The translations under genes and the position numbers were made by a program. Shown piece after piece: positions 28,130 through 32,058 of a DNA stretch of 64,000 nt (position 1 is the first letter of the stretch; every line of letters begins with the position of its first letter). Location of the stretch: contig JAIBAF010000007.1 in assembly GCA_019695335.1 (NCBI GenBank), forward strand, positions 1-64,000. The letters run 5' to 3'. The stretch comes from a bacterium. Lineage in GTDB: Bacteria; CLD3; SB21. Below the pieces are notes generated by a model. That model had not been told where the DNA came from. It saw only the letters and a list, made by a program, of their open reading frames with translations, and did no database searches.

Positions 28130-29161
28130 ATGAACTATCCGCACACTTTGCAGTTTCCTCATTCTTTTATTACAAATGAACAACGTTTTTATTCTTATCA
28201 TCAATACTTAAAATCCCGTTTCGGCCATCGGATACATAAAATAACCGTAGACGGCGGGTTTACTTGCCCCAATCGCGACGGCACCGTGGCTTTTGGCGGC
28301 TGTACTTATTGCAATAATGAAGGCTTCAGTCCCGCTTCAAATACGTACCGCCCAAAAATTTATCTGAAGCCGTCTACAGGAATTCGGGATCAAATTGACA
28401 ATAGCTTGCCGCAGATGCGTCGGCGATTTAAAATCGATAAATTCTTTGTCTATTTTCAGGCTTACAGCAATACGTACGCACCGGTCGAACAGTTGAAAAA
28501 AATGTATGATGAAGCTTTGAGTCATCCTGATATTATCGGCCTCGTTATAGGCACTCGTCCAGATTGTATTGATCCGGAAAAATTAGACCTGTTAGAATCG
28601 TATACTCATAACTATTATATCAGCATTGAATACGGGTGTGAGTCGATTTACGATCGCACGTTGGAATGGGTCAACCGCGCCCATACATATCAATGTTTTG
28701 TCGATGCCGTTCAGGCCACAGCCGATCGAGACATCGACGTGTGCGGACATATTATCCTCGGTTTTCCGACCGAGTCTCGCGATGAAATGGTAGCGATGGC
28801 CGATGCATTATCGATATTACCGCTGAAATTTATTAAAATTCACAACCTGCACATCGTTGATGGCACCGCACTCGCTCACACCTATAAAACTCACCCCTTT
28901 CATGTTTTTGAATTCGATGAATATCTCGAATTAGTTACGGATTTTGTTGAACGACTTTCTCCATCCATTGCGATCGAAAGATTGTACGGCGATGCGCCTC
29001 AAGGAATGATGATCGCGCCTACATGGATGACCACCGGTTCCGATATGGCAAAAGCCGTTAATCAAAAATTGATCGAACGTAATACCTATCAAGGTATTCT
29101 CTCTGTAAACAGGTTCATGGATACCAATATCAAAAAAACAGAAACGGTTAATTCGCAATAG
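28130..29161 (+). CDS. Radical SAM protein, TIGR01212/YhcC family
   Basis: The 343-aa protein matches the YhcC/TIGR01212 group of Elp3-related radical SAM proteins. The cluster-binding motif has the family's wide spacing: Cys46, then Cys58 and Cys61 in CPNRDGTVAFGG-CTYC. Other family segments are YFQAYSNTYAP, IGTRPDCI and HIILGFPTES. The role of the family is not settled. The gene lacks a strong ribosome-binding site and follows the glycan-type cluster, but its housekeeping-like base composition marks it as outside that cluster. It ends 9 nt before the eRF1-like gene. Confidence 0.9.
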   Translation: MNYPHTLQFPHSFITNEQRFYSYHQYLKSRFGHRIHKITVDGGFTCPNRDGTVAFGGCTYCNNEGFSPASNTYRPKIYLKPSTGIRDQIDNSLPQMRRRFKIDKFFVYFQAYSNTYAPVEQLKKMYDEALSHPDIIGLVIGTRPDCIDPEKLDLLESYTHNYYISIEYGCESIYDRTLEWVNRAHTYQCFVDAVQATADRDIDVCGHIILGFPTESRDEMVAMADALSILPLKFIKIHNLHIVDGTALAHTYKTHPFHVFEFDEYLELVTDFVERLSPSIAIERLYGDAPQGMMIAPTWMTTGSDMAKAVNQKLIERNTYQGILSVNRFMDTNIKKTETVNSQ

Positions 29162-29170
29162 GAGGCCCGC

Positions 29171-30334
29171 ATGCTTACTCAGAAAGCTATCGAGCGGCTG
29201 TCCAAATTAGGCAGCAAAGATTTTTTTATTACCAGCCTTTATCTTAATGTTGACCGTAATGCTAAAACCAACGATTACAAAATTGTCCTGAAAGACCTTC
29301 TGAAAGAAAAACGTCAACGGTTAGAATCCGTAAAAATCGAACGTAAATTAACCCGCGAACAGGCGCAATCCATCGAAAACGATTTTGCAAAGCTTGAACA
29401 GTTTATTAATTCCGGATACATTCATAAGGATAATCATAAAGGTTTAGTCATTTTCTGCTCTACGGCCAATAATTTCTGGGAGATGTTTGAATTGCCTCAG
29501 CCCGTAGCGGATTATTTAAATGTCGATATCGATCCGTATGTGAGACCTTTGAGCGAACTGGTGTGCGATCACCGCAGCTATGCGATTCTGCTGATTGATA
29601 GCGCAAAAGCTAAAATGTTTGACGTGCATCTTGGCTTCGTTAAAGAGCAATTTAATATTCAAAATGACGTACAACCCAAAATCAAATACGGCGGTATCGA
29701 CGGAATGGATGAGCGTAAAGTCGACCGTGCTCATGACGAAATGGTCAACAAACATTTCAAGCATGTTGCGGGCGAAGCTGAAAAACTTATAGGCACCGGC
29801 GATATAACGTGGTTAGTCGTGGGAGGACGCCAGAACATGATCAATCAATTTGAATCTTTATTGAGCGGTCCGTCGCGTAAAAAAATTATCGGACACATCG
29901 TCGTTGAACCTGAAGCGCCGTTGACCGATGTCTTATACAAAGCCGAAGAAGTTGCCAAACAAGCTGAAAAAAAATATGAAACGGAATTGATTGAAAAACT
30001 GCGCGCTGAAGCTCATGGAACCGGCGGCAAGGGAATTTTTGGCCTGCAACCCACCTTGCAATCGCTCCGTCGCGGTGGCGTCAATACACTTGTCGTAGCC
30101 AAAGGCTACACGGCGCCGGGATTTGTATGCCATAAATGTTTTTTTATCGGAGTACCTGAAGAAAAAGGCGCCAAGAACACTTGCCCCATCTGCTCCGGCG
30201 ATGCCCATGACGTCCATGACGTCATTGATGAAGCGATTACGTTCGCATTCATGCAAGGATGTCGGGTTGAAAATACAGCCGAGAATTCGCGCCTTAAGAT
30301 TATGGGTAACATCGGAGCGATCCTCCGATATTGA
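29171..30334 (+). CDS. Bacterial eRF1/aRF1-like protein (baeRF type) with replaced GGQ loop
   Basis: The 387-aa protein resembles archaeal/eukaryotic release factor 1 over its middle and C-terminal domains. Where eRF1 has KHGRGGQ plus a long helix, this protein has KYGGIDGMDERKVDRAHDEM (about 172-191) and NKHFKHVAGEAEKLI. Further on, GKGIFGLQPTLQSLRRGGVN matches the domain 3 helix, and the C-terminus NIGAILRY matches the eRF1 GGIGGILRY. CHKC (near 322) and CPIC (near 341) form a zinc ribbon. No GGQ tripeptide is present, so peptidyl-tRNA hydrolysis by the usual route is unlikely. Bacterial members of this family are thought to act in translation quality control or as tRNA/ribosome factors. 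GGAGG precedes the ATG. Confidence 0.85.
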   Translation: MLTQKAIERLSKLGSKDFFITSLYLNVDRNAKTNDYKIVLKDLLKEKRQRLESVKIERKLTREQAQSIENDFAKLEQFINSGYIHKDNHKGLVIFCSTANNFWEMFELPQPVADYLNVDIDPYVRPLSELVCDHRSYAILLIDSAKAKMFDVHLGFVKEQFNIQNDVQPKIKYGGIDGMDERKVDRAHDEMVNKHFKHVAGEAEKLIGTGDITWLVVGGRQNMINQFESLLSGPSRKKIIGHIVVEPEAPLTDVLYKAEEVAKQAEKKYETELIEKLRAEAHGTGGKGIFGLQPTLQSLRRGGVNTLVVAKGYTAPGFVCHKCFFIGVPEEKGAKNTCPICSGDAHDVHDVIDEAITFAFMQGCRVENTAENSRLKIMGNIGAILRY

Positions 30335-30394: not shown

Positions 30395-31630
30395 ATGAGG
30401 TTGTTTGCCGTACTATGTTTTGGTCTTATGATTTCGAAGGGTTACGCACAATCCCATACGGATTTGTTTGCCAAAGTTCAAACTATATTCAACAATCGCT
30501 GCGTGAGTTGTCACGGCTCTGATGAACCTACTGGCGGCATGTCGCTTGAGGCCGGAGTCAGTTATAAAAATATCGTTAATGTGCCGAGCAATGAAAATGG
30601 CCAACTCCGCCGCATCGCACCGAATGCACCAACGGACAGCTATCTCTTCAGAAAAATATTACAAGAACGCGATCACTGGCCCTATGCCGAAGACGGAATG
30701 CCGCTCGATGCCGACAAACTGTCAACCAATGAAATTAATACCATCAAAGAATGGATCAATTCATTCCCTCAAGATGTTTGGGGCAATTCTAAAGATGTGA
30801 CAATTGCTGATAATAATAATTCCACTCTTGAAAAAGAATCCTTTCTGGCCACTCAATTGATTAATCTGCCCACGACCAGAACTCTCGGACAAAAAACCGC
30901 CGAATTTCGCATTCTTCACCGTTTCGGTTTGATCAATGGCGGTGGCAGTAATACGTTCGGATCTTTTTTTGGATTGGATAACGGCGCTTTTACCAGCATC
31001 AACCTTAGTCTGGCATTACGTAATGATTTGGACATCCTGGTTCGCAGAACCGGCCCGTTCAAAGATATTGAAGTAGCGGCCAAATACGTCCCGGTTAAAC
31101 AACGACCGGAAATGCCTGTGTCATTTGGTCTATATGCCGGATTTGACTGGCTTAGTCGGAAAGACACCGGAAAAAATCGCTTCGCTCCAAATATTCAGAT
31201 CCTCGTAAGCTCTCAAATCAACAACGATTTTTCTGTTTTAGTTGTTCCGACATTTGCATTCAAGAGTAACCACAATGAAGTTGTAATCAAAAACGGAAAC
31301 GAATATACTGACACGCGCTATACGATGGCCGTCGGGTTTGGCGCTCAATACCAATTCAAACCCAATGCAGCCGTCACAGGTGAATTCATCCCCCGTCTTG
31401 ACGGTTACAAAGGGATTAAAGACTCGCAGGATCCCCGCTTCAATACATGGTCGCTCGGCTTAATGTACAAAATACGATTGCATGTTTTTCAAGTCTTAGT
31501 ATCCAACACCCAATTCCTTCACACGACGCAATACACCGCCGGAAGCTCGGCTATTACGGAAAATAAATTATTTAAAGGCGGAGCCAATTTCCATTTTGGT
31601 TTCAATATCATCAGGCAATTCAAATGGTAA
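30395..31630 (+). CDS. Haem c domain fused to a predicted outer-membrane beta-barrel
   Basis: The 411-aa protein has a signal peptide (residues 1-19, ending KGYAQS). A cytochrome c-type domain follows, with CVSCH at 36-40 and a candidate axial Met102 in DGMPLD. From about residue 155 to the end the sequence is a series of alternating strands rich in aromatic residues (LNLSLALRNDLDILVRR-type) with a terminal aromatic Trp, typical of an outer-membrane barrel (DUF5777-like). This puts a haem on or inside a porin-like protein, which would suit electron transfer across the outer membrane. GGAAGGAG precedes the ATG. It overlaps no gene but lies 8 nt before a related haem lipoprotein. Confidence 0.8.
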   Translation: MRLFAVLCFGLMISKGYAQSHTDLFAKVQTIFNNRCVSCHGSDEPTGGMSLEAGVSYKNIVNVPSNENGQLRRIAPNAPTDSYLFRKILQERDHWPYAEDGMPLDADKLSTNEINTIKEWINSFPQDVWGNSKDVTIADNNNSTLEKESFLATQLINLPTTRTLGQKTAEFRILHRFGLINGGGSNTFGSFFGLDNGAFTSINLSLALRNDLDILVRRTGPFKDIEVAAKYVPVKQRPEMPVSFGLYAGFDWLSRKDTGKNRFAPNIQILVSSQINNDFSVLVVPTFAFKSNHNEVVIKNGNEYTDTRYTMAVGFGAQYQFKPNAAVTGEFIPRLDGYKGIKDSQDPRFNTWSLGLMYKIRLHVFQVLVSNTQFLHTTQYTAGSSAITENKLFKGGANFHFGFNIIRQFKW

Positions 31631-31638
31631 GGAACAGC

Positions 31639-32058
31639 ATGAAAACATATTTATTACTTTTGGTAATAATGGCTTTGATCATAGTGCAAGGTTGTGGCGA
31701 ACTGGAAGAAAAAAATCCCGAAGCGAATAGAGTTCCAACCGATGTTCAGGCGATTTTTACAACCTATTGCGCAAAAAGCGGATGTCATGCCGGCTCGTCT
31801 CCACAACAAGACATGAACTTATCAGAAGAAGTTGCATACCAGAATATTGTCAATGTCACCAGCATGGAGAATCCGTCGCTGAAGCGTATTAACCCCGGCA
31901 ACGCCAACAATAGTTATCTCATTCGTAAAATCGAAGGCACCCAATCGGTTGGAGATCGTATGCCGCTTGATCAGGAAGGCCCTGATGGCGGTTACCTTAG
32001 TTCCACGCAGATTAATACCATCCGCACATGGATCGATAATGGCGCACTGCCACGTTAG
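31639..32058 (+). CDS. Cytochrome c-like lipoprotein (CX4CH)
   Basis: The 139-aa protein has a lipoprotein signal with Cys19 in IVQGC, so it should be anchored to a membrane facing the periplasm or outside. The domain is a paralogue of the haem domain in the upstream gene: both share an NIVNV segment, RI-P-N, SYL-RKI, MPLD and an INTI-W-I ending. Its haem motif is C44-AKSG-CH (CX4CH) rather than CXXCH, a variant known from some cytochromes. Met108 is the likely sixth ligand. I start it at 31639, where AAGGAA is well placed; an ATG at 31624 overlaps the upstream gene. Confidence 0.8.
   Translation: MKTYLLLLVIMALIIVQGCGELEEKNPEANRVPTDVQAIFTTYCAKSGCHAGSSPQQDMNLSEEVAYQNIVNVTSMENPSLKRINPGNANNSYLIRKIEGTQSVGDRMPLDQEGPDGGYLSSTQINTIRTWIDNGALPR

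Follow-up and report, generated by a model that had tools for sequence, protein, structure and literature searches.

Proteins of the baeRF clade, including family 10 (PF18854), were described in bacteria in 2019 (Burroughs and Aravind, PMC6514570), and a well-conserved catalytic glutamine is said to be kept by family 10 (PMC6514570). Balon, another member of the aeRF1 superfamily, has been established by cryo-EM as a ribosome hibernation factor (PMC10901736). Both the bacterial family and the missing GGQ motif of bacterial relatives are already described. The locus considered here lies in a window of 64,000 nucleotides (positions 1 to 64,000 of contig JAIBAF010000007.1, assembly GCA_019695335.1), in which an initial annotation had pointed to an eRF1-like protein with an altered GGQ loop. 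The protein does not represent a new kind, since it or its close relatives are already covered by Pfam, NCBIfam and the two studies cited above (PMC6514570; PMC10901736); it extends the aeRF1-like hibernation factors by a clear branch, is otherwise an essentially ordinary member of its family, and overturns nothing established.

The baeRF10 gene (29171..30334; like all features given by coordinates below, on the forward strand) encodes a Balon-like protein of 387 amino acids, attributed to baeRF family 10 by its PF18854 match and its AlphaFold2 model, for which Msmeg1130 is the best fold match. Its Shine-Dalgarno sequence, AGGAGG (29160..29170, read directly from the sequence), shares bases with the TAG stop codon of the radical SAM gene before it (28130..29161), an arrangement consistent with translational coupling of the two genes. 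The ORF is real. Between the pair of congeners, both carrying GMDER in the loop, dN was 0.027 and dS 1.18 (dN/dS approximately 0.02), indicating strong purifying selection on the protein; this ratio and the absence of stops ruled out a pseudogene or sequencing error, as did the fact that the Q to D replacement takes two base changes and is common to both congeners. A viral, phage or plasmid origin was also discarded, relatives being absent from viral contigs, phages and plasmids. The gene is present in single copy in all seven genomes examined from the source's bacterial family, and none was found in two genomes from another family of the same class. The reverse-strand ORFs across the gene (82 and 107 amino acids) showed nothing notable.

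Similarity to aRF1/eRF1 is far above chance and spans all three domains. The middle domain matched PF18854 with 86.6 bits (E 2.6e-24; cut-off 27.1), as did all 28 aligned relatives with their own matches to the model, and the archaeal/eukaryotic model TIGR03676 (aRF1_eRF1) matched residues 4-387 with 74.2 bits (E 8.8e-21), below its equivalog cut-off of 234.7 bits. The Pfam matches to eRF1_2 and eRF1_3 were weaker and fell under their cut-offs, and the NCBIfam Balon models NF052287-NF052289 scored 67.2, 64.4 and 48.8 bits against cut-offs of 330, 480 and 320, which were not reached. Msmeg1130 Balon was the best PDB match of the protein in a single-sequence search, and in a profile search of the PDB it scored 106.6 bits vs 84.7 for aRF1 from H. 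salinarum (4af1). The initial annotation's proposal of an aRF1/eRF1 homologue in a bacterium is thereby borne out by PF18854 and TIGR03676, and the similarity that it had traced from the GGQ region to the C-terminus reaches further, taking in the N-terminal domain. The pieces that it had quoted are all present in the ORF, namely GGIDGMDER, GKGIFGLQPTLQSL in domain 3, the CxxC...CxxC zinc site lying between the domain-3 pieces, and the closing NIGAILRY at the C-terminus.

The three-domain aeRF1 fold of Balon is predicted for the protein by the AlphaFold2 model, which was built from 28 sequences (mean pLDDT 88.3, pTM 0.81). Residues 1-121 (29171..29533) would form an N-terminal domain of the decoding-centre-binding type, assigned from the fold match over residues 1-387, in which the NIKS motif is absent, as it is from all family members compared. 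The middle domain (eRF1_2/baeRF, residues 122-262; 29534..29956) is assigned from the PF18854 match, and the C-terminal domain (29978..30331), of the eRF1_3/Pelota type, from a weak PF03465 match under the cut-off. The best solved-structure match to the model was Msmeg1130 Balon (Foldseek E 1.2e-25), with superpositions at Z 32.9-33.2 over 355-368 residues and 3.4-3.7 Å (8v9l: Z 33.2, 368 residues). Rv2629 and the P. urativorans Balon followed at Z approximately 25, eRF1/aRF1 at Z 13-20 and Pelota at Z 10-13, although Balon's lead over eRF1 may owe something to how the model arranges its domains, the whole-chain rmsd to eRF1 being approximately 10 Å. Structure prediction, put forward earlier as a check by superposition on aRF1, therefore agrees with eRF1/aRF1 and agrees better with Balon.

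By both sequence and fold, the closest characterised relatives are the Balon hibernation factors. The window protein has the three-domain fold of Msmeg1130, Rv2629 and P. urativorans Balon (PMC10901736) over its full length (Z 25-33), lacks NIKS and GGQ as they do, and has in common with Msmeg1130 a glutamate at column 181 of the alignment. Identity to Balon is, however, only about 14-19%, the equivalog cut-offs are far from reached, a zinc ribbon of the aRF1 type stands where Balon has an unrelated hairpin insert in its C-terminal domain, and the long loop insert of several Balon-type loci (L050-L059) is missing. With archaeal aRF1 (TIGR03676; PDB 4af1, 3agk) the protein shares full-length similarity, domain order and the C-terminal zinc ribbon, but it has neither GGQ nor NIKS, scores under the equivalog cut-off and occurs beside two bacterial RF-1-domain factors. 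These are full-size proteins of the canonical RF1/2 type, and their presence in the source genome ruled out baeRF10 as the organism's primary release factor. Family 10 as described (PMC6514570) resembles the window protein in middle-domain score, three-domain architecture and bacterial host. One genome (G105) encodes a family-10 protein (L023) together with two Balon-type proteins (L050, L059), which indicates that the two are separate lineages able to coexist.

The former catalytic loop and the start of the next helix span residues 174-186 (GGIDGMDERKVDR; 29690..29728), and the loop GGIDGMDER itself residues 174-182. GGQ was found neither here nor in any family member compared, so that its loss, as initially annotated, stands; GGIDGMDER, by contrast, is not a special conserved replacement. 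Within the bacterial family, the five relatives belonging to other genera have GG[IV][DE]G[ST]QER as their loop, GMDER being confined there to the window's genus (both congeners) and recurring in a distant, unrelated phylum. Across 60 relatives, residue 180 may be Q, D, E, S, L or others, with at least 10 state changes over the tree, so a search for the loop in relatives recovered lineage variation around the fixed positions G178, E181, R182 and R186. A recent, genus-only loss of the catalytic glutamine (GTQER to GMDER) was consequently dropped as the main account, since position 180 is variable whereas the aligned catalytic column is 181 and holds glutamate throughout the window protein's clade.

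Within the window's 35-row clade (25 rows without near-duplicates), G178, E181, R182, R186 and H195 are invariant. Glutamate occupies column 181 in 35 of 35 members, and of the 60 relatives just 6 have glutamine at that place, in GGWSQ loops (L037, L044, L045, L091), in an AQ loop (L041) and in L028, where the loop is as long as that of the window protein, which is itself about three residues longer than the GGW-SQ form. The glutamate of Msmeg1130 also falls on column 181 in two HMMER alignments. Because the glutamine-bearing members carry their glutamine in this column, the residue replacing the catalytic glutamine would be Glu 181, an assignment that is well supported but not proved, as it depends on the alignment of a short, variable loop modelled with a pLDDT of approximately 58 over residues 171-180. 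The glutamine described for family 10 (PMC6514570) thus holds for some members only, and the expectation from the literature that every family-10 protein keeps it is corrected. With glutamate in the catalytic column of the window protein and its whole clade, peptide release by the usual mechanism appears unlikely, as the initial annotation had proposed, and the alignment argues for a non-hydrolytic clade. The literature searched gave no data on eRF1 Q185E.

The zinc ribbon insert (30128..30193) is defined by C320xxC323 and C338xxC341, of which C320, C323 and C338 are invariant and C341 almost so in the 28-row alignment. The cysteines are partly lost in a sister phylum (L064-L078), with C323 replaced by D and C341 by H, D or G while C320 and C338 are kept, and Balon-type loci show a cysteine-free stretch at this position. 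Since the ribbon stands in place of the EF-Tu-contacting hairpin of Balon, the protein may be recruited in another way than Balon; having kept the ribbon in its aRF1 form, it may also represent an intermediate between Balon and archaeal aRF1. The novelty is modest and lies in a widespread subclade with glutamate fixed at the catalytic column and the zinc ribbon kept.

Related to aRF1/eRF1 but without the peptide-releasing residue, the protein most likely plugs idle ribosomes instead of ending translation. On balance it is probably a Balon-like factor of the A site that is non-hydrolytic and keeps ribosomes silent. As a mimic of aRF1 and tRNA, it would enter the ribosomal A site and extend its middle domain toward the peptidyl-transferase centre, where the loss of the catalytic glutamine would make peptidyl-tRNA hydrolysis impossible; the ribosome would be kept inert and protected, probably jointly with the HPF/RaiA of the genome. 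From the homology with Balon we infer ribosome binding, the A-site location, the hibernation role and the co-operation with HPF. Against this reading stand equivalog scores of 49-67 bits vs 320-480, the zinc ribbon, the lack of a nearby HPF gene in the stretches checked, immediate neighbours that are not stress genes, and a high Z to Balon that is partly due to the placing of the domains in the model. A narrower proposal, which we hold tentatively and regard as somewhat doubtful, is that of a distinct zinc-ribbon, Balon-like subclass distributed over several phyla, with glutamate fixed in place of the glutamine within the invariant loop GxxER(x3)R, acting as a dedicated non-hydrolytic hibernation factor that would dock through the aRF1-type zinc ribbon and not through the EF-Tu hairpin.

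The action on stalled ribosomes or tRNA suggested in the initial annotation is possible, even though the nearest characterised proteins are hibernation factors. A rival reading is a rescue factor resembling Dom34/Pelota, which would bind stalled ribosomes, leave the peptide unhydrolysed and promote subunit splitting or recycling, as proposed for baeRFs (PMC6514570). Pelota belongs to the same superfamily, also lacks the catalytic glutamine, and has similar middle and C-terminal domain folds, but its structures align with the model only from residue ~106-136 to 387, at the lower Z-scores given above, while the N-terminal domain of the window protein is of the aRF1/Balon kind and Balon is nearer in sequence, which makes such a rescue function unlikely.

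The Balon-like reading must also be set against the gene neighbourhood. Upstream lies the radical SAM protein (Radical_SAM and Radical_SAM_C by Pfam), syntenic in all genomes of the family, and downstream a beta-barrel protein of the DUF5777 family whose N-terminus carries a CxxCH motif (30395..31630; Pfam, synteny), followed by a small cytochrome-like lipoprotein (31624..32058) without a Pfam match, placed by synteny and with a heme-like motif recognised by eye. The order radical SAM - baeRF10 - DUF5777 was conserved in six of six neighbourhoods from the family's other genomes, and the small cytochrome came next in five of them, the sixth contig stopping short of it. In five genomes of another phylum (L102-L105, L111), baeRF10 adjoins a conserved cluster of MotA/MotB-like and lipoprotein genes, so the genomic context is wholly different between phyla. 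Conserved linkage of this kind, with unrelated but equally conserved neighbours elsewhere, could suggest a ribosome factor tied to the adjoining radical SAM and cytochrome genes, or a function moved outside translation; this is improbable, as the neighbours change across phyla while a protein with three domains of ribosome-binding type remains constant. No HPF gene was found near baeRF10 in the stretches checked (the window's family and distant relatives), which ruled out a stress/HPF operon, and the single HPF/RaiA gene of the source genome lies elsewhere (L060, contig C62).

An active peptidyl-tRNA hydrolase working through another loop residue, as suggested for family 10, described as having a well-conserved glutamine (PMC6514570), and in keeping with GGWSQ in some members and GTQER in close relatives, is highly improbable, because the loop of the window protein has no glutamine, the catalytic column is glutamate across the clade, and Gln 180 is exchanged for D, E, S or L while G178, E181, R182 and R186 stay fixed.

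Two further features were observed around these genes. The HPF/RaiA gene is flanked by a tyrosine recombinase (XerC/D-like) and an ORF recognised by eye as serine/threonine kinase-like. The DUF5777 barrel protein and the small lipoprotein (30395-32058) carry a similar cytochrome-like N-terminal segment, detected as a BLAST cross-match between the two.
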